This document shows positions 18,119 through 56,294 of a stretch of DNA of 64,000 bases, piece after piece. The notes under the pieces are model-generated. The model ran no database searches. It was given only the letters and a program-made list of their open reading frames with translations, and was not told the origin of the DNA. The stretch is from positions 62,001 through 126,000 of the forward strand of contig NHNY01000006.1 in assembly GCA_002786065.1 (NCBI GenBank), read 5' to 3'. Position 1 is the first letter of the stretch; every line of letters begins with the position of its first letter. This DNA is from Microcyclospora pomicola (Eukaryota; Ascomycota; Dothideomycetes; Capnodiales). A program made the translations under genes and the position numbers.

Positions 18119-19147
18119 ATGGCGAACGTCGCACACAGAGTCATGGGTCCTAGTACCTCGACGGCACTCCTACGACAAAGCATCCCTCCAATCAATCCCA
18201 CAATGCTGCATCGACAGGCCCTCCTACCGCTGCTAGCACTACGACACTCCTCACACGGCCCCATGAGCCTCGCGGCGACGACGCGGAAGAAGGTGACCAT
18301 CCCGACCCTCCAAGCGATGCACCGTCGCCAGGAGCCCATCGCGATGATCACGGCGCACGACTTCCCAAGCGCGCATGTCGCGGACCAGGCGGGAATGGAC
18401 ATGGTGCTAGTGGGAGACAGTCTGGCCATGGTGGCGCTGGGGATGGAGGACACGAGCGAGGTGCTCATGGAAGAGATGATCCTGCATTGTCGGAGTGTGG
18501 CCCGTGGAGCAAAGGCGGCCTTCATTGTGGGTGACCTGCCGATGGGCTCGTATGAGGTCTCGCCGGAGCAGGCGATGCAGAGCGCGATCAAGATGGTGAA
18601 GGAGGGTCGAGTGCATGGCGTCAAGCTCGAGGGCGGAGTGGAGATGACTCCCGCCATCGCGAAGATCGCCACTGCAGGCATCCCGGTGTTGGCACATGTC
18701 GGTCTGACGCCGCAAAGACAGAACTCGCTTGGGGGGTTCCGCGTGCAGGGGAAGTCGATCGCCAGTGCGGTGCGAGTCCTGCAAGACGCGCTCGCCGTGC
18801 AAGAAGCCGGCGCCTTCGCTGTGGTACTGGAAGCAGTCCCCGCCGAGGTCGCCGCTCTCATCACCAAGAAGCTGTCGATCCCGACCATTGGCATTGGCGC
18901 CGGAAACGGCACCTCCGGCCAGGTGCTGGTTCAAGTCGACATGTCCGGCAACTTCCCACCCGGCCGCTTCCTGCCCAAGTTCGTCAAGCAGTACGGCGAT
19001 GTCTGGGGAGAAGCGAAGCGGGCGATCGAGACGTATCGGAGTGAGGTGAAGGATTATAGCTATCCAGGGCCTGAGCACACATACCCGATGTCCAAGGAGG
19101 TCTTCGCCGAGTTTGAGAAAATAGTGGAAGGCCAAAGTTTAGTATAG
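18119..19147 (+). CDS. ECM31: 3-methyl-2-oxobutanoate hydroxymethyltransferase (PanB/Ecm31)
   Basis: This enzyme makes ketopantoate from 2-oxoisovalerate and 5,10-methylene-tetrahydrofolate, the first committed step to pantothenate and CoA. The 342-residue protein has a ~55-residue Arg/Ser/Leu-rich, acid-poor N-terminus consistent with a mitochondrial presequence. The PanB barrel then begins at KKVTIPTLQAMH. Diagnostic stretches are MITAHDFPSA, MVLVGDSLAMV, FIVGDLPMGSY, GVKLEGG, ILAHVG-type VLAHVGLTPQ, and IPTIGIGAGNGTSGQVLV. All metal- and substrate-binding regions are intact. There is no intron. It is convergent with ATG12, only 132 bp between the stop codons, so the 3' UTRs probably overlap. 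Confidence 0.95.
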   Translation: MANVAHRVMGPSTSTALLRQSIPPINPTMLHRQALLPLLALRHSSHGPMSLAATTRKKVTIPTLQAMHRRQEPIAMITAHDFPSAHVADQAGMDMVLVGDSLAMVALGMEDTSEVLMEEMILHCRSVARGAKAAFIVGDLPMGSYEVSPEQAMQSAIKMVKEGRVHGVKLEGGVEMTPAIAKIATAGIPVLAHVGLTPQRQNSLGGFRVQGKSIASAVRVLQDALAVQEAGAFAVVLEAVPAEVAALITKKLSIPTIGIGAGNGTSGQVLVQVDMSGNFPPGRFLPKFVKQYGDVWGEAKRAIETYRSEVKDYSYPGPEHTYPMSKEVFAEFEKIVEGQSLV

Positions 19148-38462: not shown

Positions 38463-40190
38463 CTACCAACCCTCAACTTCCTTGAGATTTACCCACACAC
38501 CACTCTTCGGCTTCGCCGTAATGCCGCCTTTGATCTCCGGCTCGCCAGTCGCCAGCTCGCTGCCCTCTTCGAACGTCGTCTCAAACCGTCCGACCCAGCC
38601 CGCGACTAAGCACGCGAACTCGGCCTGGGCGAACTTCTGACCAATGCACGAACGCGGGCCGTGCAAGAAAGTCAAAAAGGAGTAATTGCTATCGGCGCCG
38701 CCGTTGTTGTTCGCTTTACCGTCGGCGTCGAGCCAGCGCTCGGGGTGGAATTCCAAGGCGTCCGGGCCCCAGAGATCCTTGGAGACGTTGATGGCCCAAG
38801 GCGGCAGGATGACGCGGGTGTCCTTGGGGATGAAGTGGCCGCACACCGAGGTGTCCTTGGCGGCGACGCGGATGGTGATGGAGACGGGCGACCAGAGACG
38901 GAGGACTTCGTTGCAGAAGGCTGAGAGGTAGTGGCAGTTGTCGATGTCGGTGGCGGTGATGGACGAATCGAGGGATGGGATTTTTGAGCGGACTTCGTTG
39001 CGCAGTTTCGTCTGGATCTCGGGGTACTTGCAGAGCATGTAGATGGCCCAGATCATGGCGGTGGCGGTGGTTTCATGTCCAGCTGCGAGGAAACTGGATG
39101 GGTTGTTAGCAAGTGACGCAGAACAGGCACATGTAAGCGCGAGAAATGTAACTCACGTCATCATTTGGTTGACCAGATCCTCATCCGAGAACCCTCCCGA
39201 TTCCAGCGCGACAGACATAATGTCGACCTCGGATCTCTTCTCCTGGGTCAACAGCTTTCGTTTCCGCGCGATCGAGTCCCGACAGATTTTCTTGATATAC
39301 GCTTGTGCGTCCTGGATATCGCGATTGCGCTGAATCGGAATGAGGCGGATGAGCCACAGTGGCAGGATGATCCCAAGGAGTTGCAAGTAGCGGCCAGCCT
39401 TCCCCGGGTTGAAGACATTGCGGTACATCTGGTTCAATTGGTTGTTGGGATTCTTCAGCGAATCGAAGTCCTCGCCCATACCAGTCAGCCCGATGATGTC
39501 CAGGGTGGCGCGAGAAGTCCAATCTCCCACGTTGATGGTACCAGGGGCATGCTTGGAAGGATCAATGAGACGATCAGCCAACTCCGGGTCAGCGGCTACT
39601 GGCTTTGTCTCCGCTGCAGCTTTAGCTAGACCAGTGACCATCTCTCGGCTCTTCGACCAGAACACCGGATAAAGCTCCTTGATGTGCCGAAACGCAAACG
39701 CAGGCATGAGATGTTTCCTCTGCCGTTTGTGCTCGTCACCTTCCGCCAGGAGGATTCCGATACCAAGAATCTGTCCAAGCCCGGCGCGAATTTGCCACGG
39801 CTTAATGAAGTCGTAATTCTTGGTGACCAAGACCTCTCCCATGGCTTTGGGATTGGTGACCACGATCCGCTCGCCACCCCACATCGAGTACTTGATAATG
39901 CCATCGTTCGGCACGGTCTCAAGCCATTCGCGATGGGGGTTTCCAGAGGACTCCCGCAGAACTCGCTTGGTCTGACCAAGGAAGAAATCGCCATCCTTTG
40001 GCGAAGGGAGATTCCGCAGCGGGCTGATGTATCGTGGATAGAGCACGTATTTGTAGGTCAGGAATACGACCGCTTGAAACAGAAATAACAGGGTGGCGGT
40101 TGCCGGGAGTCCTAGGAAGTATTGTGGCGCATATCGCTGAATGACACTCGAGAAACCGAACGAGGCACCCAAGATCTGGAGGAGACTCAT
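38463..40190 (-). CDS. Cytochrome P450 monooxygenase
   Basis: Two exons, 39157-40190 and 38463-39093, are joined across a 63-nt intron (GTGAGT donor, GCTAAC branch, CCAG acceptor) inside helix I, giving NQMMT|FLAAGHETTATA. The 554-residue protein starts at the ATG at 40190 (MSLLQILGASF). One or two N-terminal hydrophobic segments (about residues 18-50) anchor it in the ER. P450 signatures are the helix I AGHETT, ExxR as EVLR, the PERW loop (FHPERWL) and the heme loop FLHGPRSCIGQKFA with its Cys ligand. The subfamily cannot be fixed by eye; the HKRQRKHLMPAFAF stretch resembles microsomal CYP4/CYP52-clan-like fungal enzymes. It stands alone, with no biosynthetic cluster around it. Confidence 0.92.
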
Positions 40191-41006
40191 GGCAGCAGTG
40201 TCTTGTTTATTAGACACAAAGTCTCTACAAATTTCAAGCAAAAGATGGCCAAAATGGTGGCATCTGTCCCGCGAGAAGCCACTGAGCGCCAAGCCGTGGT
40301 GTTGTTATAAGGTCGTGGGCGGAACGGAGCCAGGGACGAAGCCCGCGTCCACTCCTCGTGCGCAGGCTACCTGAGCTACCCGATCAGGGATAGCATTGCG
40401 CTGTCAGCGGGTTGTTGATTCGCTGGATGCTACTTGTGCCTGACTTCATCATGTCGGACAACAAGCCACCCACGCTATCATCGTCACTTGACATCGGCCT
40501 TGATTCATCCGTCCCCAGTCTTCTTTGACTAAAGCTTGAGGAGAACAGGAGGGATTGGTATCACCGAATACCGATTGACAATGTTGCAGTGTATCGTGGT
40601 CTCGCATCGATCGGCCTCGTAATCGATGATAGATGGTCCGCGGGACATGTCCAATTCGCTTCCTCGGCTGTCGTGAATACTTTTTGCGTACGTGCGATTT
40701 TAGTGTCCATGGCATACACGCAACCTGGCGACGACGAGGATAAGTCACATAAGCTAATTCAGACATACAACAATCATGGCGAATAGGACTGGTTGGTGCA
40801 ACAATGTGATATGCACACCATGAATGCTTACAGCCGACGTACGAAAAGTAAAACTGGGTCAGGAGGGTTTTCATTCCATGCAAACCGCTATAACAGGCAC
40901 AAAAAGCACCTACTGACGACTTCATCACTCGAGAGCAGTGGGACATCGGAAGTCGAAGGATGTGACGCTGCGCGCCGTTCGCCTCACACAAGAGAGGCCC
41001 ACTAGA
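40191..41006. other. Intergenic region, no gene seen
   Basis: About 0.8 kb upstream of the P450 gene. A minus-strand open frame of 180 codons here is unsupported by any motif. Likely promoter of the P450 gene. Confidence 0.45.
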
Positions 41007-41498
41007 TCACTGACTACACTCCTTGCACGCTTTCTGGACTTTCCCCATTCCAGTCGAGACAACATCGCCCATCGAAGTGATGAGATCCTTGCTCATAGAT
41101 CGGCTCTTAGTTGCCGCCTTGGCCCAAGCACTTTCATCCCTCAAGGCGAAGCCCCCCAGGAGCATTCCGGCAACAGCCCAGGCAGCGTTGTCAGGATCCT
41201 CCACGGCGCCATAGATGCTCATGGCCGCGTTACCAGCGACGTCGGCAAGTTTGGCGATTCGAGCGACCTGTGCGAGCGCAGCGACACCATCTGCGGCCTC
41301 GCCGATGCCGGGAATGATGAGGAGAAATGCCGTGAGGAATGCCATGATCATGTCCTTCTTTGCCTCTTCTTCCGCCTGCTCGCCAATATCGGCGACCTGT
41401 TGCATGGCTTGTGTGGCTGCCTGCAACGAGAATACCACGCTGGATGAAGCGTCTACGGCGTCTGCGTCACTTGCGGGGAAGAACAGCACGGAAGCCAT
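41007..41498 (-). CDS. Small Ala/Gly-rich hydrophobic protein
   Basis: A 163-residue frame from an ATG at 41498. The middle is strongly hydrophobic and Ala/Gly-rich (AFLLIIPGIGEAADGVAAL, then VAGNAAMSIYGAVEDPDNAA and AVAGMLLGGFAL), flanked by helical charged ends and a Lys/Cys-rich C-terminus (KVQKACKECSQ). I recall closely similar Ala-rich segments near the C-termini of much larger fungal proteins, including some LysM/GH18 chitinase-like ones. It could therefore be a stand-alone small gene or a remnant of a larger one; I cannot tell. It lies about 190 bp from the first CCTCGAC copy of the neighbouring array, outside it. Confidence 0.55.
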   Translation of the reverse strand: MASVLFFPASDADAVDASSSVVFSLQAATQAMQQVADIGEQAEEEAKKDMIMAFLTAFLLIIPGIGEAADGVAALAQVARIAKLADVAGNAAMSIYGAVEDPDNAAWAVAGMLLGGFALRDESAWAKAATKSRSMSKDLITSMGDVVSTGMGKVQKACKECSQ

Positions 41499-41499
41499 G

Positions 41500-44400
41500 C
41501 TGGCGGAGTCAGACAGCCAACTTGCGTACGCTCACATCTCGCAACTCACACTATCGGCATAATGATAGCAGCTTCTTTTGTACCTGCACCACGACCTCAA
41601 CGTGGCGCACTCAACGCCCACTCAACTTATTACATATCGGCTGCGTCGTTGGATGTGAGAACCGACGTGATATAAAATGACAATATAATCCCTCGACTGC
41701 ATTGCCGATCCAAGCACCACGTCCGTGACACTTCAACAGAATCATCCATCATCACAAACTACCGGAGGTAGCCATCGTCTGGAAATTCATCTTCCCACTG
41801 ACTCAGAGACCCTCAACGGCAAGGTCTCTAGCTTCTACACAAGAAAATTTTCATCACAGTCTCAGGGCAAAATCGATAGTCGAGGCTATATTTTTTTTTC
41901 TGCGGCCTCGAAATATGTATCCAGGGATTTACCAAGGGACGGAATGCCCCCGGAGAGGTTCCCTCGACGGCAGATTGTGAGCAATTTCAACATAAGCAAA
42001 GCCTAAGAAAAGCGCGTACGCAGAGGATGAGGTTCCTCTCTCACAAACCGATTCGACTAAATACGGATCACGATGTTGTATCTCCAGCATATTGGCATAC
42101 CTCGACCCAACGCAACTAGTCGGCCTACTCACAAGTCAGGTCTGTGTCATATTAGACTTTGACTACTATCAGCCAATTCTCAACTGCGGTCGAACGTCGA
42201 CAGCTATCTAGGTTCAGGATGAAAAAAGCATTGGCAGCGATATGATTGCCCTCGACGTCGAAGAGCGCAGGCTCGCATCACACGAGACCGCGTCCGCAGA
42301 TCGAGGCATTGAGCATGGCTTACCTATGTCGGGACATCGACGGCTGACTGAACCCAGAATGGAAGAAGCTTTGGCAACGACAGAATCACCCTCGACGTCG
42401 AACAGCGCACGCTTACATTGCGTGACGCTCGCCCGCGGATCGAGACCACCGAATATGCATTGCTTGCGTCGGGCATCGACAGCTAGCTAGATGCAGAAGG
42501 AGAGAGATTTGAGCAGTGATGGGGTCACCCTCGACGGCCAGCAGGTCAGACTGCCACACGTACCGCGGCGAATGGACAGGCAGCTAAACGGAAGAGCGGA
42601 GTCGCACATATCACGGCAATGTAGCCGTCGACATCAGCCAGCTGCCAATCAAAATCCGTTTGCTCTATGGTGAAGTCAGCATCAGTCCAGACCTCGACCG
42701 CAAACAGCACAAGATGTGCCTCTAGGCGAGTGGCGAGCGTACACAAGACTTTCAGCTACAGGAAAAATCCGTAGCAATTGCTATTGCTTGGCCCGCATTC
42801 TCTTCGCGCTGAAGATGCATCTCCGTCTCAGATCCTCGGTCGCTACAAGCCTCCCTCGACTAGAGCTGTCCAGCAACGCCAACAGTTTAGGAAGGCAGTT
42901 ACTCGAAGAAAGCAGTAGTCAGTTTCAACATGTATATGAGCAGTGCTCCATTTTCCCATCATGGTTTCTGCTTATCCTGTAACGTCTTGCGGTACGAGAT
43001 CCCTCGACTTCTGTACTTCTGAGCATTGTTCATAGAATATACTACAAATGCTCTCTACACTACGGACCCTCGACTTGAGATCTTGTATTGACGATGTGGA
43101 CTGTACCGCTGATTATGGAGTTTCTGGGACTTCAGACTCTAGGCCCTATTGCAGCTGAAGCTATCACTCCCGCAGTATGCACAATACTGGGCACCTTACT
43201 CTGTAGAAATATATCCGTGGCCACCTCTGGAATGCAATCATACATAGAGCATAGTGGTAACATGAGCGACCTCGACCTACGCTGCTGCTCCTAGTGCCCA
43301 CATCCAATAACAAGTCTCACCCTCGACCTCTGTGTGTAAAGCACCAGAGCTATATACCAGAAAGCTGTGACGGTCTATTCCTCGACCTTTACGCCAACTA
43401 GAAATGTTATGAACGACCTGTCGTGTCGTGTCATGTCATACCTCTCGCAGTCAGTACATGAGACCTCGACCGCAGGCAGTACGCCCCAAAAGATCAAGAC
43501 ATACCTTCTTGGTCCATGCCTATGTGTGCCGGCTTCAGCGAGATGTGCCACTACTTCTCGTAACATTGCTATCCTCGACCGCACTCACACAACTTCCAAC
43601 CTCGAGCACCTTGTCAGGGGCGTCAACCTGGATCTACAGACTGTGCAGGATGTTCGACGAACGCTCACAGCTCCCTGCGGCGTAAACTCGACATCGCGGC
43701 TTTGGATCTCCACCTCGACCTTAAAAACGCTTTCGTATAGACTGAAGAAAGAGCATCGGACGATCTATTAGTATGGCACACATCCTACATAGATACAGGC
43801 TGAGCATACCTGACAGCGACTGTTACGATGTGGATTCTCAATCTCATCGCCCTCGACTGCTACTAGCTAGCTAGAAAGGACTGCCGCCAGCATCTCCAAA
43901 TGGACCTTCAAGTAACCTCGACCTCACAGGACATGATATATGACCAGACAAACGCTAACTTCTTGATCCTACATCTGGACGGATGGCCAATCTGTTAAGA
44001 CGCCTCGAGTCGCAGGGATGCTATAGCGGCACCATGCTGAGGGAATACAGCCTCATGAATGCCCTTCGATAGAGACGGTGACCCCTCGACCTATCAAACC
44101 ACTGGAATACGCATCTTGCGTCGGTAGCCATTACATCAGCTATGTATCGTCCAGCTCATATCAAGCTCATGCGATTCTATTTCGACGACAACCTCGACGG
44201 GAGGCTCACGACTTTGCCTTGTATGTGTGAAAGTCGCATAAAGCTTGCAAAGAGTTTGCAAACGCTGTTATCACGCATGGGTCCATTTTGCTATGCCAAT
44301 ATGGATGGCGGCTACACCGAAAAACGCCCCCTCGACCTGTGTCATACTTTGCATATCCCACGCATGCATCGAATGCACGTTGCTCGACACCTGAAGCATT

Positions 44401-44788
44401 GCGAAGACCTCGACTTGAATTTACACACCCCGAGCGTTGGCTCAAGAGAGAAGCTTCCACATGGCATCTACACAGTCTCGTCGAATGAAAGTGCAATCGT
44501 CACGAGAACTGACCAACAGCAGCCAATTTGTATGGGCCCTCGACTCGAAAGTGGAATCTGGGGGTTCACTCCAGAAGCCCCTACAGCTTCACTCTGGCGG
44601 TTCTCTTCCTTCATTTGATGAGCGTTCACTCGACGAGTCCTTCACTCGGACACCATCTACAACCTTCTCGCTTGAACATACTTCCTCCATCTCTTTCACA
44701 TCAACACACTTCTCGACTGCGCTATAGCTTCTCTCTTCGCACAAGAGATACTGCTACCATTTCCAACACAAGATCCGCAACTGTCACA
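41500..44788. other. Non-coding left part of the CCTCGAC array
   Basis: About 3.3 kb with no convincing gene on either strand; open frames are short and unsupported. From 41691 it carries CCTCGAC about every 65-200 bp (for example 41962, 42100, 42250, 42390, 42529, 42692, 42854, 43002, 43068, 43270, 43321, 43380). The sequence between copies is of mixed composition and mostly unrelated from copy to copy, so this is not a simple satellite. It may be a long non-coding transcript or a cis-acting region; the sequence alone does not decide. Confidence 0.6.
42221..42640 (+). repeat. Diverged 140-bp tandem repeat
   Basis: Two clear copies (from 42221 and 42361) and a third weaker one (from about 42500) have a period of 139-140 bp. 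Each contains one CCTCGAC at the same place (42250, 42390, 42529). The rest of the unit has diverged considerably while the heptamer stayed exact. Confidence 0.7.
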
Positions 44789-46042
44789 ATGAGCGATACG
44801 AAGCTTCCTACACAGTTGGGAGATGCCGCCCCTCTGGAAGACACTTCCGCAGCCCTCGACCCCTTGCCAACTCTGCCACAGAGTGCTATCAGTGAGAAAG
44901 AGCTCAGTCAGATGCGCCGTCTAGAGCGTTATGCGAAGTCCAATAAGTTGAGCAAGGATGAATTTGAGAAGCTGAAGGAGAACCAGGCGTTCCTCGACTC
45001 GGACAAAGAAGCTACCATGGTTGATAACAAGCAGCAGAGCAATGACTTGAGCGTCACAACTGAGACTAGTAGAGCCGCCTCGACCTCAGCTACTATCGTG
45101 AAAAAGGAACCAACAGAGGACGACGAGGATTACGGTGCTCCTTTCGAACATAATGCAGCTATGGACGACCACATTGACAGTTCCTCGACCCTAAAGACAG
45201 GGCAGAGTAAGACTATTTCCTCTCCAACACTTGCTCAGAGCATTGAGACCTCGACCCTAGCGACAGGGCAGAGTGAGACTGTTTCCTCTCCAACACCTGC
45301 TCGTAGCATTTCGAGCCCGACCCCGCGCAGCCGCGCCTCGACTGTATCTTTGACTGGATCCACTCCATCTGCCAGCTCTGTGAAGTCCCAGCGTAAACAG
45401 ATTAGCAAGGCCCTCGACGCGGCAATCAAGCAAGTCCTCAGTGGCAAAAAGCCAAAGCTCTTCTCTGGAGCGACCATGCCCGGGAATGAGGATATTACGC
45501 AAGCCGTCACTATCATCTACGAGAAATTCGAAATCGCAAGGACCAATGCTGTCGACTTGACCAAGCTGAGGGCTTTACTCAAAAACATTGTTCACGACCC
45601 TGACGCAGTCAACGAGCAACTGCCCTGTGTGTTCATGAAGGTTGACGAGAAGAGAGAGTATATGAGGCAGCGCAAGGCCAACGCTGGAGTGACAGGACAG
45701 CAGCCCTCGACCTCCGCTCAGCCCTCGACCTCCGCTCAGCCCTCGACCTCCGCTCTGAACTCGACCACCGCTCTGAACTCGACCACCGCTCTGAACTCGA
45801 CCACCGCTCTGAACTCGACCTCCGCCCCGAAGTCGACCTCCGCTCCCAAACGGAAACAGAAAATCAAGATTGAAGCGGAAGTCGAGGGTGACGATGATCC
45901 CCATTACGACCCCGAAGACAGCGAGCAATATGATTTTTTAGTCCCATCTGAGAAGTCCAAGGAATCCAAAAAGTCCAAGAAGTCCAAGAAGTCCAAGAAG
46001 AACCAGGACGAGGAAATCGACACAGAGGGAATGTTTAACTAA
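44789..46042 (+). CDS. Array protein 1: disordered protein with conserved C-terminal domain
   Basis: I do not recognise this 417-residue protein. The start is the ATG at 44789 (MSDTKLPTQL); the frame is open further up but runs through leader-like sequence. The N-terminal half is Ser/Thr/acidic and disordered, with a short helical piece at about 35-70. Residues about 205-290 form an ordered-looking domain starting SKALDAAIKQVLSGKKPKLFSG and ending QLPCVFMKVDEKREY. This domain matches residues 525-632 of array protein 2, so the two are paralogues. Then come eight six-residue repeats (STSAQP/STTALN type), an acidic stretch and a lysine-rich tail (KSKKSKKSKKSKK) suggesting nuclear or nucleic-acid binding. 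Exact CCTCGAC copies in the gene code Leu-Asp in one frame and Ser-Thr in another. No intron is evident. Confidence 0.75.
   Translation: MSDTKLPTQLGDAAPLEDTSAALDPLPTLPQSAISEKELSQMRRLERYAKSNKLSKDEFEKLKENQAFLDSDKEATMVDNKQQSNDLSVTTETSRAASTSATIVKKEPTEDDEDYGAPFEHNAAMDDHIDSSSTLKTGQSKTISSPTLAQSIETSTLATGQSETVSSPTPARSISSPTPRSRASTVSLTGSTPSASSVKSQRKQISKALDAAIKQVLSGKKPKLFSGATMPGNEDITQAVTIIYEKFEIARTNAVDLTKLRALLKNIVHDPDAVNEQLPCVFMKVDEKREYMRQRKANAGVTGQQPSTSAQPSTSAQPSTSALNSTTALNSTTALNSTTALNSTSAPKSTSAPKRKQKIKIEAEVEGDDDPHYDPEDSEQYDFLVPSEKSKESKKSKKSKKSKKNQDEEIDTEGMFN
45702..45845 (+). repeat. 18-bp tandem repeat carrying CTCGAC
   Basis: Eight copies of an 18-bp unit code for STSAQP, STTALN and STSAPK hexapeptides. 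The first three copies hold the exact CCTCGAC; the others read ACTCGAC or AGTCGAC at the same place. Confidence 0.9.
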
Positions 46043-47246
46043 TCACTCCAATCCGTCCTCGACTGTGCGGGTCGTTGTGACGCCGCATGCACACCAAGTC
46101 GAATGCACCACGAAATCTGACGCCACCACCTCGACGACAGAACACCATCCCAGGGTATTTTTTATAAAGCATGAGACTTTCGAGCAGCATGACTAGCACG
46201 AGACTGTTGCGTGAATCTTGGTTCAACCTCGACTCAGACATGAGGGTATGGCAAACTTTTGAAGGCTTTGTGAGCCTGTTATGTATTTATATAGCCACCC
46301 TGTCTGTAGTCTTGAGGACATCATCAAAACATACTTCCCATTCTCTGACCATAGTTGATTGAACTTGCCCTCGACTTGTACGAAGCTGTTTTATCATCCA
46401 GTACAGGTAACTTAGGGTACATGTAGTTGGCGCGTTGATAAGCTGCGCAGGTAGATCCGGACGACACCTCGACCGCGAGCGGACATGTCCCGCGATTGCT
46501 AGAGCTATTCCCTCCAACCTCACATACCTTACCTTATGCAAACATGCCGATTGCAGGAACCCCCACTCGCTGTCGTAATGTTACCTCGACGGCAAAGCAG
46601 ACCACGATCAAGCGCAGAGATCACGATTGCGCATATAGGCGTGCAGCTACGGTGACTATGTCCATGAAGCCATCAAACGCGCAGCTCGAGAAAAGAAGCA
46701 GGATAAGAATGCAAGGATGCCAACCCTCGACGTTACGGTCATGAAGCCATCAAATGCGCAGCTCGACAAAAGAAGCAGGATGAAAATGCAAGGATGCCAA
46801 CCCTCGACGTGAGATCTGGAAAGCATGTATAAATGATGTAAGGTACAGGTCATGAATCTATGCGGTAGGAGCACGAGGTAAATACAAAAGGACCGCCCAA
46901 TATGAGGATTGCAGGGCGATCCACTTCGGATCAGCACCGAACCTCGACCTGGCAACGGCACTTCAGAAGCGCCCTTGATATGGTGTAGGATAAATACACT
47001 CGACTAGGTACAATCGGGCGCGACATGGAACGAACTGAATTGCTACGATCGTGTGGCTAGTACAGGAATTGCTGCGATGGCCTCGACTCGTAATTCGTAC
47101 CTCCGCCCTCTGTATGCTTAAGCCATTGCCACACTCAGGCTCACAACGCTAGCTGGATCGAACTTCTGGCAGTGTGATTAGATGAGAACCTCGACTGTAA
47201 ATTGCTTACACGACCTTCAAGTTTAAGGTAGCGGAAAGTTCACTTG
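46043..47246. other. Array spacer between the two paralogues
   Basis: About 1.2 kb without a supportable gene. It carries about eleven exact CCTCGAC copies (46057, 46129, 46227, 46369, 46467, 46584, 46725, 46802, 46942, 47081, 47189). Four spacings fall within 139-142 bp. It should also contain the terminator of array gene 1 and the promoter of array gene 2. Confidence 0.6.
46663..46816 (+). repeat. 77-bp tandem duplication
   Basis: Two near-identical 77-bp units (from 46663 and 46740) each end in CCAACCCTCGACG. The second copy also turns an internal GCTCGAG into GCTCGAC. Confidence 0.9.
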
Positions 47247-49361
47247 ATGTTCACATGCAAGCTGCAATTGAGAGATAATTCAGTCTGTAAACTTCATTTC
47301 CCAGCAACAGAACGTGCAGACGAATCGGCAGAAGCAAGCAGATCCCTCGACCCTTCGTCTACGGAAAACATGCCAATCGCTCCCACAGCAACAGAACGTG
47401 CAGACGAATCGGCAGAAGCAAGTAGATCCCTCGACCCTTCGTCTACGGAAAACATGCCAATCGCTCCCACGGCAACAGAACGTGCAGACGAATCGGCAGA
47501 AGCAAGTAGATCCCTCGACCCTTCGTCTACGGAAAACATGCCAATCGCTCCCACAGCAACAGAACGTGCAGACGAATCGGCAGAAGCAAGCAGATCCCTC
47601 GACTTTCTCCGGTCTGCAGAAGCCATGCAAATCATTCCCGCGGCGACAGAACAAGCAGAAGAAACCATGGAAGCAATCACTGCCCTCGACGCTTTGACGA
47701 CGCCGAACAGCCTCGCCAGTGCGGACCATACTGCCCATACAGTTGAAACCAATCCAGGCGAAAGTCGATCTGCTGAGGACGAGAATACGGACCCGGACTT
47801 TTCGATGACCGATCCATCGATCATGCTCGGTGGACAAGATGCTGCCCTCGACGGGATAATGACTGGGAACAACTACCTGCCGAGCATGACAGCTCATCGT
47901 ACGAACACAAATTTTACCTCTATGGAATTTGGGATGCATACAACTCATGAGCCTGTGCCTTCCCTCGACCGCAATGACGCTCAAATAGAGCGTGCAACAA
48001 GTCGATATAGTGACATTGGGATTGATACTGCGGAAGGCCTAGGGGGCGAACCGAACGAAACGGTCGCCTCGACCGCAAGGAAGCACGATATAGCAGCAGA
48101 TGTGTCCTCAGGGGAGAAGAAGAAAGCCAAGAAAGATGATAACACCAAGGGCCTGGCCACGTCCTCGAGTGCCGAAGCTACAGTCGCCTCGACCGCAAAG
48201 AAGCACGATATAGCAGCAGATGTGTCCTCAGGGGAGAAGAAGAAAGCCAAGAAAGATGATAACACCAAGAGCCTGGCCACGTCCTCGAGTGCCGAAGCTA
48301 CGGTCGCCTCGACCGCGAAGAAGCACGATATAGCATCAGATGTGTCCCCAGGGGCGAAGAAGAAGGCCAAGAAGGATGACAATACTACGGGCCTGGCCAC
48401 GTCCTCGACCGGAGCTGGAGAGGATGCAGGGCTTGACAAGGTGACTATGGGTAAAGCTCCGCTCCCGGCCTCGACTACCAGCGAAAGAGACCTTAGGATC
48501 AAGAAGCAAGGCAATACCCAGACTCCACTTATGCCCTCGACTGCTGCCAAAACTGTGGCTAAGCTCAAGAGTCCGACCACGTCTTCCAAGTCGGCTGAAG
48601 CATCGGTCACTACCGATGCACCTCCAATGCCCTCGACTGCTGTCAAAAGGAGCGCTGGAACACAAAGTACAGCCAAGACCAAAATTGCGGCCACGTCTTC
48701 TGCTCAACACACAGCTACAGCTCAACCCTCGACACCAAAGAAGAGCATGCATGTATACCGCGATAATCCTAACCAGCAACGTGCATCTGACCGCAAGTAC
48801 GCCAGGACCCGCCAGCAGACCTTGCTATCTAATGCTTTGCAAAAAGCCTTCGACGATATCCTCAAAGGTAAACAGCCTAAGTTGTACAGAGGTAAAATTT
48901 TAGGCGCCCCAGAGAAGGACGATGCGATGGATAAGGATGAGATGAGAAAAGCGCAGGACATGTACGAGGACTGTACGACAATTGGCGAGGCTCTAGAAAT
49001 ACTGCAACAAGCTTACCTCGACGCCATGTCAAACACAACCCACTTCAGCGCACTTAAGGCCAAGCTCAGAAAGATGACACGCACGGGAGCTGTTGTTGTC
49101 GAGAAGGTACCTGGATGTTTCTTGGCTCCCGCCGAGAGGAAGCCGGCGGGCCTCGACCGCAAGAAAGCCTCAAGCTCCGTTAAGGCTGGCAAAAAAACGA
49201 AGAACGGCAAGGCAAAGACGAAGAAGAATTTACCCCTCTACACTGGCAGCCATGATGAGAATCAGCCTATAGGCGGCAAACGCAAGCGGGACGATCAAGA
49301 TCCTGATGATGAGACCAAAGGCGACGATGTTGTGAACAACCGCCATGAACTTCAGACGTAA
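47247..49361 (+). CDS. Array protein 2: paralogue of array protein 1 with N-terminal repeats
   Basis: A 704-residue frame from the ATG at 47247; a later start or an upstream exon is possible because the first ~20 residues look unlike the rest. Residues about 20-130 are four copies of a 28-residue unit (ERADESAEASRSLDPSSTEN). Three 40-residue units (VASTAKKHDIAADVSSG, then EKKKAKKDDNTKGLATSS) lie near 272-391. The rest up to 500 is Ser/Thr/Lys-rich and disordered. Residues about 525-632 carry the domain shared with array protein 1: NALQKAFDDILKGKQPKLYRG, an insert with MRKAQDMYEDC, then LKAKLRKM and VPGCFLAPAERK. The tail is basic (KAGKKTKNGKAKTKKN; GGKRKRDD), nuclear-type. CCTCGAC recurs throughout, coding Leu-Asp in some places and Ser-Thr in others. 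Function unknown. Confidence 0.75.
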   Translation: MFTCKLQLRDNSVCKLHFPATERADESAEASRSLDPSSTENMPIAPTATERADESAEASRSLDPSSTENMPIAPTATERADESAEASRSLDPSSTENMPIAPTATERADESAEASRSLDFLRSAEAMQIIPAATEQAEETMEAITALDALTTPNSLASADHTAHTVETNPGESRSAEDENTDPDFSMTDPSIMLGGQDAALDGIMTGNNYLPSMTAHRTNTNFTSMEFGMHTTHEPVPSLDRNDAQIERATSRYSDIGIDTAEGLGGEPNETVASTARKHDIAADVSSGEKKKAKKDDNTKGLATSSSAEATVASTAKKHDIAADVSSGEKKKAKKDDNTKSLATSSSAEATVASTAKKHDIASDVSPGAKKKAKKDDNTTGLATSSTGAGEDAGLDKVTMGKAPLPASTTSERDLRIKKQGNTQTPLMPSTAAKTVAKLKSPTTSSKSAEASVTTDAPPMPSTAVKRSAGTQSTAKTKIAATSSAQHTATAQPSTPKKSMHVYRDNPNQQRASDRKYARTRQQTLLSNALQKAFDDILKGKQPKLYRGKILGAPEKDDAMDKDEMRKAQDMYEDCTTIGEALEILQQAYLDAMSNTTHFSALKAKLRKMTRTGAVVVEKVPGCFLAPAERKPAGLDRKKASSSVKAGKKTKNGKAKTKKNLPLYTGSHDENQPIGGKRKRDDQDPDDETKGDDVVNNRHELQT
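47307..47650 (+). repeat. 84-bp tandem repeat in array gene 2
   Basis: Three nearly identical 84-bp units and a fourth diverged one code the 28-residue ERADESAEASRSLDPSSTEN-type repeat. One exact CCTCGAC lies in each (47345, 47429, 47513, 47597). Confidence 0.92.
48061..48420 (+). repeat. 120-bp tandem repeat in array gene 2
   Basis: Three 120-bp units (from 48061, 48181 and 48301) are over 90 percent alike by eye. Each begins with GTCGCCTCGACCGC, so the heptamer falls at 48067, 48187 and 48307; the third unit has a further copy at 48403 where the first two read CCTCGAG. Confidence 0.92.
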
Positions 49362-49799
49362 TGAGAGCACCCTCGACTTGCACAAGAGCAGGAGACATGA
49401 GTACGTGTGAGTTCAAAAGAGGTTGCCGCCTCAGAAGCATATTTAGAACATCTGCGGCAGTATAACACATCGGGGATCCCTCGACTGCGGGTTTCGATGA
49501 AAGAAGGATATCATCTTCATACAGGTAGTATTCACATAGCTTGTAGCCTACTGGGTACATCTACCCGATCACGTATCTTCATAATCTTTTATTATTTCAG
49601 ACAGATGCTTCATGATGTCGAGGTCCTGCATTGCGTTGCAGCTACTGAAAGGTATTCTAAACTCGTGCCTGCCTGCAGAGCTCTTTCAGGAAATGAAACC
49701 AACAGCAATTTCAGACTTGACAAGAAAACAAGCCTCAGCATGTTCCTCATCACTCCAACATGTCGAGGAGCCCAGTTCCTCGCTGTCCCTACATGAACT
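49362..49799. other. Array spacer before array gene 3
   Basis: About 0.44 kb. Exact CCTCGAC at 49371 and 49479. Inverted copies (GTCGAGG) appear near 49617 and 49763, which is unusual because almost all others are on the plus strand. Probably the promoter and leader of the next gene. Confidence 0.55.
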
Positions 49800-51047
49800 A
49801 TGGCCAGATCTAAGAAGATGCCTACACGTACGCCTCAAAGTCATCCTGCGACCACCGCCATCACGACCACTCCCTCGACTGCAGCGTCACGACGCTCGAG
49901 AAGGATTGCGAGCCATCCAACAAAGAACTATCAGGTGAAGGTGGACATTGGTGATGCTGCCGACGACGAGAAGTCAAGAGTTCATTTTGATGATTCCGAA
50001 GAAAGCGAAGATGATGCACCCTCGCTTGTCGATGATAAAGATGCACCCACTCCAGTCAATGCAGGCGACGATGACCCCTTCACACCGTCAGCTGCACTAG
50101 CATCCCAGGATTCAGCTCACCGTCTTCCTCGACTCAAAAAGCAGGCTCCGCCGTCGTTCACTCTCCCTGCCTCGACCTCTCAGCAGCTGGTATCTCACGA
50201 TGAGACTGGCTCTCCAGAGGGCCCCTCGACAGCTTCTCAAGCACTTCCTCCAGCCCGCATATCTTCACGAAATGCCAATCGACCCAAACAACATGCTCCA
50301 CCGTCGCTCCCTCTCCTTGCCTCGACCTCACAGCCACAGGTGTTTCACGATGAGACTGGCTCTCCAGGAAGCCCCTCGACAGCTTCTCAAGCACTTCCTC
50401 CAGCCCGCATATCTTTACGAAATGCCAATCGACCCAAACAACATGCTCCACCGTCGCTCCCTCTCCTTGCCTCGACCTCTCAGCCACAGGTGTTTCACGA
50501 TGAGACTGGCTCTCCAGAGAGCCCCTCGACAGCTTCTCAAGCACTTCCTCCAGCCCGCATATCTTTACAAAATGCCAATCGACTCGAACCGCAGGCTCCT
50601 CCGTCACTCCCTCTCCTTGCCTCGACCTCTCAGCAAGAGGTGTATCACGACGAGACTCGCTCCCTAGAGGGCCCCTCGACAGCTTCTCGAGCACTTCCTC
50701 AAGCACGCAGATCTTCAAGAAATGCCAGCAAAGCTCGTCCCAACTACAGCGTGAAGCTGGATATCGGCGAGACCGGCGAACACACCGCACTTTCGACGCA
50801 GAACCGTCAACAGCACAATCACGACCTCGACATCATTTCGTCTGATACTGACGATGAGGATGATCGACTTCCTTCCGATCCACTGCAGGCGTCTCGACCC
50901 ACGCACAGTCACAAGCACAATGATCTTCAACGCAGCAAGATCGGATACCAGAAAGAACAGCAAGGTCGAATAGCCAAACGCATGAAGCGGACTGTGGCTA
51001 GTAGTGATGATGAGCAGATGCAACTCCCACTGCCAGCGCATGGATAG
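49800..51047 (+). CDS. Array protein 3, N-terminal open frame (repeat-rich)
   Basis: A 415-codon frame from the ATG at 49800 ends at a TAG at 51045. Near the start, SRRSRRIASHPTKNYQVKVDIGD is a basic motif followed by an acidic stretch. A similar motif returns near residue 305 (ARRSSRNASKARPNYSVKLDIGE). Between them are four 50-residue repeats of the type PPSLPLLASTSQ...HDETGSPE.PSTASQALPPARIS. The frame then continues unbroken in the same register beyond the TAG, apart from one more TAG at 51117, into a long nuclease-like region with no ATG of its own until 51720. I therefore think both parts are one gene, by an unrecognised intron or read-through; loss of function is the alternative. Confidence 0.65.
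   Translation: MARSKKMPTRTPQSHPATTAITTTPSTAASRRSRRIASHPTKNYQVKVDIGDAADDEKSRVHFDDSEESEDDAPSLVDDKDAPTPVNAGDDDPFTPSAALASQDSAHRLPRLKKQAPPSFTLPASTSQQLVSHDETGSPEGPSTASQALPPARISSRNANRPKQHAPPSLPLLASTSQPQVFHDETGSPGSPSTASQALPPARISLRNANRPKQHAPPSLPLLASTSQPQVFHDETGSPESPSTASQALPPARISLQNANRLEPQAPPSLPLLASTSQQEVYHDETRSLEGPSTASRALPQARRSSRNASKARPNYSVKLDIGETGEHTALSTQNRQQHNHDLDIISSDTDDEDDRLPSDPLQASRPTHSHKHNDLQRSKIGYQKEQQGRIAKRMKRTVASSDDEQMQLPLPAHG
50128..50727 (+). repeat. 150-bp tandem repeat in array gene 3
   Basis: Four 150-bp units each carry two CCTCGAC copies 54 bp apart (50170/50224, 50320/50374, 50470/50524, 50620/50674). The middle two units are nearly identical; the first and last are more diverged. 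Confidence 0.92.
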
Positions 51048-53121
51048 AACCCTGCTGGCCGTGATGTCGCTGGTGATGAAGACGAGGATGTGCCGCTGTC
51101 ACCTTCCGCGCACGGGTAGACTCCTGCCGATGATGAAGTAGCCGAGGAAGATGGAGCGGAGGATAGCGATCGGGAATATGTTGATGATGTCTACGGAGTC
51201 GAGGAACACAGCGAGTCGGATGATGAAGCATACTTAGACGACAATGACTGGCACGTCGAACGCGAGTCCACTATCAAGGAGAAGCAGGCAGCTAGGCAAG
51301 CTGAACAGGAAGTCATCGACGAATTCTTTGACAGCATTGTGAAGCCGTCGAGGAAATCCCGCAAGCGCAAGCCCAACGTTAATAGCAACAAGCCTATTAC
51401 CGAGAATGAGGCTATCCTTCTATCACAAGGCTTGCAACGCAAACCAAGGGGCTTAAAACTCTCGAACCCCCCTGTCGCTACTGATCCCTCGACCTTTCAA
51501 GCTATCGAGCTTGGTATAATTTCACCTGGACCATCTAATGAATCAGAAGAAGACATTTCTTCAAATATCGATCGCTTCGAAGCTGAGATCTGCTCTATCA
51601 ATACTGACCGGAAACGCCAAACAAATTCCGAAGATGCTCCTGCAATATTCGCTATATCACAAAAAGATATCTTACAGAGCAAATCAATCGACGAACTCAA
51701 TCGTCTAGTGTTCAGCGGCATGCTCCCTGTGACAAAATCTGTTCTTAGTCGCAACAGACCAAAGACGCTGGATGACATGCGAGACATTCCGAGACCGACT
51801 ACAGATATGATGGCTGAAGGTATGTTTATCGTATACTGGTCGATGACTGTTCTTCAAACTGGTGTTACGATTCAGCTGTACTGCTATGGTGGAAGCGGCA
51901 CCCAAAGGATAAGCGGCTCGCATCGCCTCATGTACTATGAGTACCAAAAGCGACTTTCGAAAATGGGTTATTACAACCGATATGCCATTCGAACAACTGG
52001 GCATACTCGACTTCTCATTCAACACAACACAGAAGTCCACATTCGCATTCTATGGGCAGGGCACCACAGCCAGTACTCTGTCAGCGAGGTGTTGCACGTC
52101 GAGGCTGTCTTCATTGATTTCTTTCAGAGTATTCCACGAGAATACTTCACCAACCACAGCGATAACTTTGCTGCACACAACTTCGAGGCCCGCGATGCTT
52201 ATAACGAGGTACTTAATAGCCTCGGACGAGACGATCCAGACTATATAGGCCTCAATCATGCAAGTCCTTTCCGACAAGGCACAAAGCATACGATGTGGAC
52301 AGATGAAGACGCAGCACGTAAGAAATCAAGATTGGAAGCACAGAACTGTAAATGTCCGATCTGTAAGGCGCAGCTAAAGCGAATGGGTAATGAGGAGGAA
52401 GGCAGTCAACCGACATTCCATCGTCTCGAAGCTGTCGAAGCTGCATACATCTGCGATTCATGTTGGAATATTTTCCATCACCGTGAGGAGGGACAGTGGA
52501 ATATTGCTACCTTAGAGGAACTCCAGGAACGAAGAAAGAGGCGGCGCTTTGCCATCGACAAGGCTAAAAGCTGTCATATATGCCCTCTTCACGTCCCTGA
52601 TACTAAGGGGAATAGATACTACCACTCGACGGTCCCAGGATTTGAAGGACATATCTTATGTACTGGCCACTACAATTCATGGATTAACTTCATAAAGGCC
52701 ATTGGGCTGCACTTCAGTCACCCTGACCTGAAGGCAGAACATTACGAGTACGTATCATTGCTCATCTTGCATTCATACGCTGACGCTTAGTAGGATGTGG
52801 AAGAGTGAGAACTTCTCTTCTATGCCTAGCTCGATGCGCAAGAAGATCTTGATACCCAAAGATGCAGTCTGTGTAGTGTGTGGAAAGAAGCCTGAGGGTT
52901 GGTCGAAAATTCCAGGGTTCATGAAAACAGTTTGTTCAACTCATCGCAACAATGCCGCAATATTCAAGATCACTTACATACAGACCCGAGGCTGTGAGCC
53001 TTCGCCTGAGGTGTATCAGAAGTTTATCAAAGCAGGATTTCCATATTCCAAAGAGACCAAATACAGAGTCGGGAAGGGCGGTCCGAAAAAGCGAATGCAC
53101 AGACTACCAGATGGATTCTAG
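51048..53121 (+). CDS. Array protein 3, GIY-YIG-like nuclease region with Cys/His zinc knuckles
   Basis: The frame of the preceding repeat region continues through 51120-52747. It then crosses a 43-nt intron (GTACGT donor, GCTGAC branch, TTAG or the next TAG three bases on) to 52791-53121. An acidic, then basic (RKSRKRKP) segment comes first. The core from about 51810 reads GMFIVYW...LYCYGGSGT, then RLMYYEYQKRL, and later VEAVFIDFF. This order resembles GIY-YIG nucleases (two Tyr, an Arg, a Glu) in a poorly studied fungal family that I recall also ends in GATA-like fingers. Knuckles follow: CPICK...CDSCW, CHICPLH...CTGHYN and CVVCGKKP...CSTHRNN. The first in-frame ATG is 51720, inside the ordered part. 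Nuclease activity is inferred; no motif here has been tested. Confidence 0.62.
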
Positions 53122-53265
53122 CGAGCGCGAGGCTAGTATACAGTGATGGATCTGCAGTGTTGCTGGTATTGGATTCATTGCTATAGTTCTATCAGATACC
53201 CTCGGATTAGTGATTATGTACTAGATGAACAAGGTCATAGGTGTACTCACATAATGTAGTCGACT

Positions 53266-54666
53266 ATGTGTGATATCGCGGCGATTGGGAATCCTTTGAG
53301 ATACCAGTACGAGGCAGGAGCGGCGATTGAGCTTGACTCTCCAGACACAACGCCATATTGCATCTGGCACCCCGAAACAGCATCAGAAAACACCTACAGG
53401 GAGCTCGTGCACAGGTACCCACGACTGGCCTATCATGTAGGTCGTGCCTGTGCTGTGGCTGGCTACTCGCAGCTATACCACGAGCTCGACGTTCTTCCTG
53501 AAGTCCACATTGCCGAGGAGGCCCGGGAGTGTGGTAACCTTGCCATCTATGAGGCGATCATGTCCAGATCATCTCGCTACAGCATAATGAGTGATTACGA
53601 GCTCCGCTTGGACCTCGAGAACCTTGAACCTGCATATCTGAATGGGAACACATGCGTTCGCTGGATGTTAGACATCAAGCAGCAGTTCAAGGATGCTACC
53701 AGTGATTTCTTCGAAGATGAAGGGTCATTCATACCAGCCGGATTCGATGAGGACGAGGGCTACCAGCCCACGATGTTCAATATCACCGAGGACATGCACA
53801 TTGATGAGTTCAACTCGGACGGAATCGCCAAGAGACTGCTCGCATCGCGCGAGAACCTACGCTGGCTTTACGAGCCGTTACCTTTGGACCTTCCAACAGT
53901 GCAGAAGGACCTCCTGATTGCAATGGCTGCTTACTATGGTGACATCGATCGCTATTCGCGATTACGCCGACCGAAACCTGTTCACGGCGAGATGGCCTGC
54001 TGCGTTCGCGGCATTTACCACAACACGCTCTTCGCCCTGTGGTGGGCCAGCCAGCCGGGCCGGAAATCCTCCCACATTGAGAAAGCTATCAACGCCAGGT
54101 TCATCATGAACAATGTGCTATCGCGGGCTCCGTTCAGCACACATACTACTCCTTACCTCATTTGGTGGCCAGTGCCCGCGCTTTCCACAACATATCGCCA
54201 TCTGTTGAAGCTTCAGCCTGAGATGCTCCCTCAGGTCATCCGCGCTTGTATATTCGCAAACTACCAAGATCTCTTCGCCGAGCTTCTTCCTCAAATCGAG
54301 CCCGACATCGTCATGCTTCGTGAAGCAGATAAACAAAGCAATCCCTACTTCCGTAAAGCGATAGACGAAGAGGTTGCAAGGCTCGGCATCGAGCCGAAGT
54401 ATCCTCGCGAGGCTTGGAAGATTCAGTTCAGTGGTAGCAGGTTGGAACTATCGTCTAACACTCTCATCGAAGACCTCGATGCCGATTCGATCGGAACGGG
54501 CTTTGATAGCCCCTACGACGGACTGCAATGTGTGGCAAGTACTGTAGAGCTGATGTTGTGTTTGCCAGACGAATGGAAGCTGCCTGAGAACGCCACCGAT
54601 GAAGACTGCCCCAGCGAGGTGGACTACGTGGATTGGCCACCAGGTATTGTCACAGACGAGAAGTGA
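53266..54666 (+). CDS. Uncharacterised fungal two-repeat protein
   Basis: The 466-residue, intronless protein starts at the ATG at 53266. I recall it as a member of a large unnamed family in filamentous ascomycetes. It has an internal duplication: PYCIWHPETASENTYRELV...GRACAVAGYSQLYHEL near residues 26-78, and PYLIWWPVPALSTTYRHLL...RACIFANYQDLFAEL near 300-350. Each looks like a helical pair reminiscent of ankyrin- or TPR-like repeats. A middle part has FNITEDMHIDEFNSDG and DLLIAMAAYYGDIDRYSRLRRP...RGIYHNTLFALWWASQP. The C-terminus is acidic. No signal peptide or membrane helix is seen. Codon use and composition look normal, and CCTCGAC is absent, so it lies outside the array. Confidence 0.8.
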   Translation: MCDIAAIGNPLRYQYEAGAAIELDSPDTTPYCIWHPETASENTYRELVHRYPRLAYHVGRACAVAGYSQLYHELDVLPEVHIAEEARECGNLAIYEAIMSRSSRYSIMSDYELRLDLENLEPAYLNGNTCVRWMLDIKQQFKDATSDFFEDEGSFIPAGFDEDEGYQPTMFNITEDMHIDEFNSDGIAKRLLASRENLRWLYEPLPLDLPTVQKDLLIAMAAYYGDIDRYSRLRRPKPVHGEMACCVRGIYHNTLFALWWASQPGRKSSHIEKAINARFIMNNVLSRAPFSTHTTPYLIWWPVPALSTTYRHLLKLQPEMLPQVIRACIFANYQDLFAELLPQIEPDIVMLREADKQSNPYFRKAIDEEVARLGIEPKYPREAWKIQFSGSRLELSSNTLIEDLDADSIGTGFDSPYDGLQCVASTVELMLCLPDEWKLPENATDEDCPSEVDYVDWPPGIVTDEK

Positions 54667-56294
54667 AGAGATTGGAGCTGTCGCAATCACTCTTGTGTGT
54701 AGAAGAACAAGATATGCCCGTGCATCTCACAAGCACGACTTTTCTCTTTGTCGGAGTAAGGTGCATTGCTAGTGTGGGTTGTCAATTGATTGTATCGAAT
54801 ATCGCGCGTCCACGAATTCACTTTGGGCATTTCGTCAAGTCATTGCATGCCGAGCATAGATGTAGCCCGGCACTGAATACAATGATGTGTTCCGATGTAC
54901 CGTTTCCCGAGATCGCCCATTTCAGGACACTGCTGCGCCGCACTTCAGCGACCAGTGTCGTATCTTGCCCGACCTGCATGTCCAAACGTGCACACTGCAT
55001 TACAGCCGCATAAGCGCGCAGGTGCTGTTACATGTACGTGATGTGCATGCCAGTCACACTTGCGAAACGCATGAACATGACCTCCCAGCCACTCGTATAA
55101 AATATGCCGCCGGACACGGGCATGACACGGAACATGGAACGATCTCGCAGTACTGTATGCACGTTCATACCTCGAGCAACGGGTATATACTGGCGGTGAA
55201 ATCCTTCCCTCCATCACACATCAATCAGCTTCCAACATGCACTCACCGGATCCAGACCGCCTCCAAAAATAGCCACATAGAGACAACGTGCGCTAGTTAG
55301 CTGGGCAGGATGTTGGAGTAAGGTTGTGCGAGCTCGGCTGTGTCGTTCCACGCCAATCGCAGGCTGTCGTTCTTGCGGGGCACAGGCAAGGCTGAGACGC
55401 CTGGCTGTGGAGCCGCTAGGCTGGCTGGCACGTTTGGCTTCAGATGCTTGCTGTGTCGGCGATGGCTGCGAGCATCGCTTGCACTCTGGTCCTGGGTATA
55501 CCGTGCCAGCGAGAAGCGAAAGTGAGAGGCTGTTGTCAACATGCAGGCAATGAAAGGGACTCATGGAGTAAGGTAATTTGGCATTGACGGGTGAATAGCT
55601 TCAAGTCGTTCTCCCAGATGTGCTAGCGGCAAGGCAGTCTTCGCACGAGAATCCTAATCGGCCACGAAGGAATGCACAGCACGAATCATCCTGGCGCCGA
55701 CCACCGGTGAATAAGTTTACTCGCTTCTTATTTCAAATTCGCATCACGGCCCCCAAATCCAGCATAAGTTTCAGCGAGCGCGGGCATCCTGCAGTGTGAC
55801 CAACCTGTCTCTGGGTTGGCAGCCTGTGACTGGCTGCTGCTGGCTGGTCGAAACAACATGATTTGTCTTATTTTGGGTACGGTAGAACGGGTGTCTCATT
55901 GATGAAAGCTCGATCCTGAACCCACAAACAGTCGATCGCGCGGTGAAGGAACTCAAGCACACTCAGCCACGCCGAAACCTTGGGCATACCTTAAAGCACT
56001 GCCCACAACGTTACGGACTGGCGCTTTGGCTCCACGGAATGGTGTAGATATACCGTCCTGCAGCCTTCATCTCCATCATCCGCATCCAGCGCTTCATCAC
56101 TCTTGGCGGTGACTCGACCTGACCGCAATCTAAACGCTTGCTTCCTCAGCCGCATTGCTGCCTAGCCTGCCTGAATCCTTCCCGAGGTTGACGACCAAGA
56201 TATTTGTATATCCACTTCCTTACTTCCACTTCGCGCGGCGACGACGTGATCAAAAATAACATACCAAATCCTCACCAGCGCAAATCAACTCAAG
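54667..56294. other. Intergenic region, no gene seen
   Basis: About 1.6 kb. A few open frames of 75-137 codons overlap on both strands without domain, signal or splice support. The last 300 bp are pyrimidine-rich (TTCCTTACTTCCACTTCG-like), consistent with the promoter and leader of the MARVEL gene. Confidence 0.5.

Follow-up and report, generated by a model that had tools for sequence, protein, structure and literature searches.

Polar arrays of the heptamer CCTCGAC in the fungus Microcyclospora pomicola: possible protein-binding sites of a selfish element

Why should one heptamer, CCTCGAC, recur dozens of times in a single orientation across 9.8 kb of a fungal contig? The locus in question (array 1) lies at positions 41691-51493 of the window, a 64,000-nucleotide stretch of the Microcyclospora pomicola genome (contig NHNY01000006.1, positions 62,001 to 126,000). 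A second locus of the same kind (array 2) is found at C14:143420-153507, where C-numbers denote contigs. Judged from their sequences, both arrays point to a DNA-binding protein that would read polar sites, with neighboring sites on one face of the helix, across an element-like locus. Our tentative explanation is a selfish element, intact or surviving only as remains, that was probably mobile at one time, marks itself by a polar array of protein-binding sites and may be coated by a protein with a domain of ~95 residues, for which the label KALD was coined in this analysis.

Array 1 contains 75 exact copies of CCTCGAC in forward and six in reverse orientation, which agrees with the claim of an earlier note on this DNA that the locus holds about 75 copies, about six of them inverted. 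The source assembly that was searched (23,372,697 bp, or 23.37 Mb, in 58 contigs) has 3314 and 3380 copies on its two strands, or ~1.43 per 10 kb per strand, a rate at which array 1 would be expected to contain ~1.4 copies instead of 75. The rest of the window has five forward and five reverse copies. The scarcity of the motif elsewhere in the window, as the note had it, holds, and the motif is scarce in the genome as well; of the outside sites that the note listed, one is at 18156 and not 18153. CCTCGAC is also the commonest 7-mer of the region, and the runners-up overlap it. The dense portion of the array is 41691-50831, and the final copy, at 51487, starts 662 bp past the preceding copy.

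Near-matches were said to occupy most of the longer gaps, and this is only weakly borne out. The sole forward variants that are slightly elevated are ACTCGAC (seven copies, several of which lie inside an 18-bp repeat) and CCTCGAG (four copies), and one-mismatch variants are otherwise mostly at background level. Because most single-mismatch neighbors stay at background, the core of the heptamer in array 1 is sharp. The 75 copies fall into 54-59 flank groups, depending on the cut-off, and the flanks that are shared are those of short tandem repeats; the 51 copies on the motif strand of array 2 fall into 47-50 groups. The flanks therefore vary from copy to copy, as had been observed, and an ordinary satellite, which the note had also set aside, or tandem repeat is rejected because the copies lack common flanks.

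Array 2 comprises 51 CCTCGAC copies on the minus strand and six on the plus strand, together with 21 TCTCGAC copies on the minus strand. Its motif was counted as YCTCGAC (CCTCGAC plus TCTCGAC) or strictly as CCTCGAC, and the mean spacing of YCTCGAC is 142 bp. The heptamer, its polarity, the length of ~10 kb and a similar mean spacing are common to both arrays, with no DNA homology; because the best blastn match between them has an E-value of 0.015, they are not copies of one DNA. The immediate context of the motif differs slightly, with CCTCGAC followed by a weak YKCA in array 1 and YCTCGAC followed by a weak CG in array 2. A search for a second motif common to both arrays gave nothing convincing.

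Three genome-wide scans for pairs of CCTCGAC, at start-to-start spacings of 65-95, 107-137 and 138-168 bp, recovered 16, 12 and 34 pairs in array 1, two of the last group being reverse-strand pairs, and 4, 9 and 8 pairs in array 2. The remaining pairs are dispersed or form a few small clusters. Within the sensitivity of these scans, which covered the 58 contigs for CCTCGAC only, arrays of other words lying outside them, no third array was found. Two candidates were rejected, namely C12:298558-298897, which reads as a tandem repeat, and C23:234258-234597, which reads as one as far as its matched letters show. A regional centromere (about one array per chromosome) is likewise rejected, with two arrays of this motif in 58 contigs.

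The open reading frames (ORFs) and repeats of array 1, in window coordinates, are these:

41691..51493, forward strand: polar heptamer array 1, with 75 forward CCTCGAC copies at a mean spacing of 132 bp
41691..44788, no strand assigned: non-coding left block of array 1, with 23 copies and the most regular spacing (coefficient of variation, CV, 0.39)
42194..42557, forward strand: three decayed tandem units of ~140 bp, 64-73% identical to the first, with heptamers intact
44789..46042, forward strand: KALD-a ORF, 417 codons from the ATG at 44789, with a KALD domain and 10 heptamers
45705..45845, forward strand: 18-bp tandem repeat encoding a serine/threonine-rich peptide, with three exact heptamers followed by ACTCGAC variants
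47244..49361, forward strand: KALD-b ORF, 705 amino acids, with a second copy of the KALD domain and 17 heptamers
47304..47603, forward strand: 84-bp tandem repeat within KALD-b, with one heptamer per unit
48060..48419, forward strand: 120-bp tandem repeat within KALD-b
49800..51047, forward strand: ORF415, encoding a low-complexity protein, with 11 heptamers
50129..50727, forward strand: 150-bp tandem repeat within ORF415, with two heptamers per unit
51120..52790, forward strand: ORF483 and its upstream extension, cysteine-rich, at the right edge, with one heptamer at 51487; membership of the element is uncertain

The motif is protected where the surrounding DNA changes. In eight tandem families of array 1, mismatches occur in 2 of 183 comparisons in motif columns and in 183 of 1212 in other columns (Fisher P 6e-10, the within-family comparisons being not fully independent). 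Synonymous codons were also resampled 500 times and motifs counted on the motif strand. An excess is present in six of the seven array ORFs tested: KALD-a (10 motifs against 0.36 expected, maximum 3), KALD-b (17 against 0.68, maximum 4), ORF415 (11 against 0.39, maximum 3), the observed numbers for these three including tandem copies, and, in array 2, KALD-c (11 YCTCGAC against 0.90, maximum 5), a recombinase-like ORF (7 YCTCGAC against 0.64, maximum 4) and ORF568 (11 antisense motifs against 2.12, maximum 6). ORF483, at the edge, has no excess (1 against 0.11, maximum 2). With tandem copies included, the codons for Leu-Asp read CTCGAC in 31 of 36 occurrences across five sense array ORFs and in 6 of 43 across 13 background ORFs, and Ser-Thr is spelled TCGAC in 34 of 41 array cases and 15 of 82 background cases. 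Because of this repeat protection, the synonymous bias and the recurrence of the motif at a locus without DNA homology, selection on the motif itself is supported at the sequence level, and it has apparently kept both arrays intact. The same three observations lend support to the sequence-specific factor with many polar sites that the earlier note proposed, although the factor itself is putative.

The polarity of the motif belongs to the DNA and is independent of gene direction. In array 1, there are 7.2 and 9.2 copies per kb in the two large non-coding blocks and 8.0-8.8 in the three main ORFs; a third non-coding block, of 438 bp, has two forward and two reverse copies. The corresponding YCTCGAC densities in array 2 are 7.0 for ORF568, 6.5 for KALD-c and 7.5-11.3 for three non-coding blocks. 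Non-coding DNA, sense genes and an antisense gene (ORF568, on the strand opposite to the motif strand) are all loaded with one polarity.

Copies are spaced more evenly than random in array 1 (CV 0.71 against a null value of 0.98, P 0.0008), and none of 5000 random sets has a CV as low as that of its left block alone. Array 2 has an even spacing for YCTCGAC (CV 0.68, P 0.0002), and the evenness of strict CCTCGAC is not significant (P 0.17). Periods of 5 to 25 bp were scanned, after 18 of the 74 spacings of array 1 had been set aside because they reflect tandem duplicates. The strongest period in array 1 is 10.5 bp (R 0.45; P 0.0008 within 9.5-11.5 bp), and its two halves, taken separately, peak at 10.4 and 10.6 bp (P 0.005 and 0.02). 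YCTCGAC in array 2 peaks at 10.6 bp (R 0.27, P 0.07; P 0.10 for lags 1-3), and at ~10.6-10.7 bp both arrays have a phase close to zero.

A control for phasing used 946 sets of 4-mers with spacings up to 200 bp, each spacing set being counted on both strands. In this analysis, which was post hoc and dropped spacings under 18 bp in the controls only, array 1, with 46 spacings, ranks above every one of the 946 control sets. When counted as CTCGAC, the array-2 motif is surpassed by 0.2% of controls for V, the same-face statistic, and by 0.4% for R; the figures are 0.6% and 8.9% for YCTCGAC and 2.3% and 36% for strict CCTCGAC. The evidence that copies are spaced near whole helical turns, with neighbors tending to one face, is strong for array 1 and weaker, although supportive, for array 2. 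Because the opposite-strand gene has the same polarity and the spacing follows the helical repeat, a function at the level of DNA rather than RNA is favored.

Alignments reveal that KALD-a and KALD-b share their domain with KALD-c (C14:150221-151924) of array 2, and tblastn with KALD-b on array 2 gives an E-value of 7.7e-15. When the genome was searched with the KALD-c domain, nothing beyond these three genes came up at E-values up to 10, and a search with KALD-a found itself and KALD-c and missed KALD-b. These searches score the best candidates only, so the counts are lower bounds; each of the three genes found lies within one of the arrays. Both KALD-a and KALD-b are rich in repeats. No KALD relatives turned up in a large protein set or among viral contigs, collections in which fungi may be few. 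Because KALD alone was seen to track the arrays, it is the best candidate for the putative array-binding protein.

Array 2 also contains a 689-codon open frame resembling tyrosine recombinases, with a 25%-identical relative in a 1001-codon open frame at C18:19604-22606. The latter matches Pfam DUF3435 at 20.6 bits (E-value 2.5e-4), under the cut-off of 25.8, and the array-2 ORF itself has no Pfam DUF3435 match; a search of PDB by sequence returned nothing for its protein. Residues GVRPGS, RR and H are conserved and, with catalytic residues assigned by eye, would fit a tyrosine recombinase. The gene is the last in the motif direction, at the downstream end of array 2, and faces outward. No convincing match to its protein or to ORF568 was found at 40001-56000 of the window, and no other copy of ORF568 in the genome search. 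The C18 relative is adjoined by a 503-codon ORF of no assigned family. Further DUF3435 matches are at C8:81-1107, C22:227760-228695, C38:3418-4054 and C43:38733-39077; seven of eight matched stretches have stop codons, so most copies look decayed. Gene content, including a P450 split over two frames, COX15 and DUF3435 genes, suggests a filamentous ascomycete.

Inverted, tRNA-derived, SINE-like (short interspersed element) repeats flank array 2 at C14:142987-143179 (minus strand) and C14:153912-154185 (plus strand), with a common 33-base end. With up to three mismatches, this end word is found at four sites in the genome, two flanking array 2 and two in tandem at C30:49235-49776. The repeats may have inserted close to the element, may represent its target or may belong to it, and no inverted flanking repeats of this kind were found for array 1 with exact words of 10-12 bases. 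A tRNA search found no tRNA genes; ARAGORN, run with introns permitted, reported one weak match resembling tRNA-Lys, on the left flank of array 2, and none in the window or at C30. Rfam at gathering score has no match in the window or in stretches L011, L012 and L013.

At the right edge of array 1, ORF483 (51339-52790) contains CxxC pairs, and inspection by eye suggests a likeness of one stretch to a GIY-YIG nuclease core, a resemblance that Pfam, NCBIfam and PDB do not support; its one PDB match is at chance level (E-value 0.085). The genome search found no second copy, and ORF483, KALD-b and KALD-c have no homologues in the large protein set, where fungi may be poorly covered. At 51045-51119, ORF415 and the next open frame, of 556 codons, are in the same frame and parted only by two TAG codons, 72 bp apart and each in a similar short sequence. 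This junction may separate two genes, be an intron, or mark a broken gene.

How might such arrays work? Chromatin protection is favored, and we infer KALD binding, coating, the anti-silencing purpose and mobility. An element protein, most likely KALD, would bind CCTCGAC (YCTCGAC in array 2) cooperatively along one face of the helix and coat ~10 kb, most likely keeping the chromatin of the element open against host silencing. High density in one orientation would let the coat ignore the thousands of single copies scattered through the genome. Sites would arise by point change and short tandem duplication and would then be held by selection, even inside genes. More generally, and with no greater assurance, fungal selfish elements may have evolved, independently of plants, a polar, helically phased, self-addressing heptamer code that runs throughout the element, its genes included, and is read by their own orphan KALD protein, which would coat the element and govern its chromatin, with a motif preference that diverges between array-protein pairs. 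To our knowledge, the self-labeling principle is otherwise known from one plant transposon group only.

The probable distant relationship of the array-2 recombinase-like protein to DUF3435 counts in favor of a selfish element, and several results weigh against the explanation. The three KALD proteins have no Pfam match over the cut-off, and thus no DNA-binding domain is shown, and KALD-a and KALD-b have none in NCBIfam. No element ends were found for array 1 with exact words of 10-12 bases. A signature of repeat-induced point mutation (RIP) is rejected, as RIP-type indices are near background in both arrays (TpA/ApT 0.66 in array 1, 0.57 in array 2 and 0.58 in the background). The recombinase end of array 2 is sparser, at 3.4-3.6 copies per kb. 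At a fixed 10.5-bp period, array 1 has no whole-turn phasing (P 0.31), whereas array 2 has a P of 0.006; the period scan of strict CCTCGAC in array 2 gives P 0.35, with 9.2 and 10.7 bp tied at the top. Also, no recombinase relative was found in array 1, and this absence also argues against the main rival, which we regard as unlikely: that the array serves to move or copy the element, its sites nucleating a protein-DNA complex active in recombination, replication or segregation, with KALD or the recombinase-like protein as binder. A recombinase-like ORF within array 2 suits that role, helical phasing fits any cooperative nucleoprotein, and polarity is known from sites that direct motors. However, the sites span all ~10 kb instead of the ends, and the 10-kb stretch around the C18 recombinase relative has no enriched heptamer of this kind.

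It is improbable, though less so than the two readings that remain, that the array is recognized by a host factor that silences or marks the locus, in the way that Kipferl guides Rhino to piRNA source loci, and that the element or the host keeps the sites for that purpose. A dense short motif can nucleate a chromatin domain, and motif density per kb correlates with Kipferl binding of transposons (PMC9531945), but sites kept inside the element's own ORFs are odd for silencing, and, within the searches made, KALD genes and arrays coincide exactly. Nearly all copies are on one strand, as are the longest ORFs of array 1, so one long motif-strand transcript could conceivably carry sites for an RNA-binding protein. 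We consider this quite doubtful: the spacing follows helical turns, and ORF568, which is encoded opposite to the motif strand, has 11 copies antisense to it (2.1 expected), so that a long antisense RNA over this gene would be needed. Finally, a good number of the copies within ORFs encode xLD or xST, and some are in tandem repeats, as would be the case if the motif had merely followed from codon bias, from low-complexity repeats in the proteins or from tandem duplication. Such an artefact is very hard to credit, as it is contradicted by the repeat protection, by two large non-coding blocks as dense as the genes, by the many flank groups of the 75 and 51 copies, and by resampling, which gives 0.4-0.7 motifs where 10-17, tandem copies counted, are seen in the three main ORFs of array 1.

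Among known systems, a literature search for CCTCGAC as a whole word returned, by title, only a plant flowering module, and one for motif arrays returned nothing matching, with thin coverage of preprints and subscription journals in both. Kipferl/Rhino piRNA (PIWI-interacting RNA) source loci are similar in that transposons recruit a chromatin domain in step with how densely they carry a short motif; on the Kipferl side, however, the motif is not element-specific, with transposons overall having no more motifs than random tiles (PMC9531945). Starships resemble array 2 in that its recombinase-like protein is probably a distant relative of DUF3435 recombinases. They are giant, with the DUF3435 captain recombinase as first gene at the 5' edge (PMC12506042), whereas array 2 is ~10 kb long, has its recombinase-like gene at the downstream end pointing outward, and has no terminal repeats or cargo shown.

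The arrays are most like the VANC anti-silencing arrays of VANDAL transposons in Arabidopsis (Hosaka 2017, PMC5735166; Sasaki 2023, PMC10398659). The likenesses are a short motif in one orientation, at high density and confined to the element; the acquisition of motifs through tandem repeats; small differences in motif from one related copy to another; and an element-encoded protein with tandemly repeated regions. The VANDAL motifs are mainly in non-coding DNA, whereas array 1 has coding sequence as densely occupied as its non-coding DNA, and much of array 2 is similar, a difference that is a further point against our explanation. The fungal host, the helical phasing and a recombinase-like protein in one array with none found in the other also differ, and the role of KALD is conjectural. 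The main ORFs have no Pfam match over the cut-off, four array-1 ORFs have none in NCBIfam, and VANC sequences were not compared directly; in place of a Mutator-like transposase, array 2 has its recombinase-like ORF. Because motif placement differs and no protein relationship is shown, membership of this family is not claimed.

If our explanation is true, it reveals how sequence can serve as the label by which a selfish element, in a small genome, escapes or uses host chromatin control, as an independent case of the plant-transposon principle. The finding yields a directly testable protein-motif pair, and two arrays with slightly different preferences in one genome offer a test of protein-motif coevolution. 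Should an anti-silencing role be demonstrated for KALD, its likeness to VANC would count as convergence, not as a kinship that has been shown.

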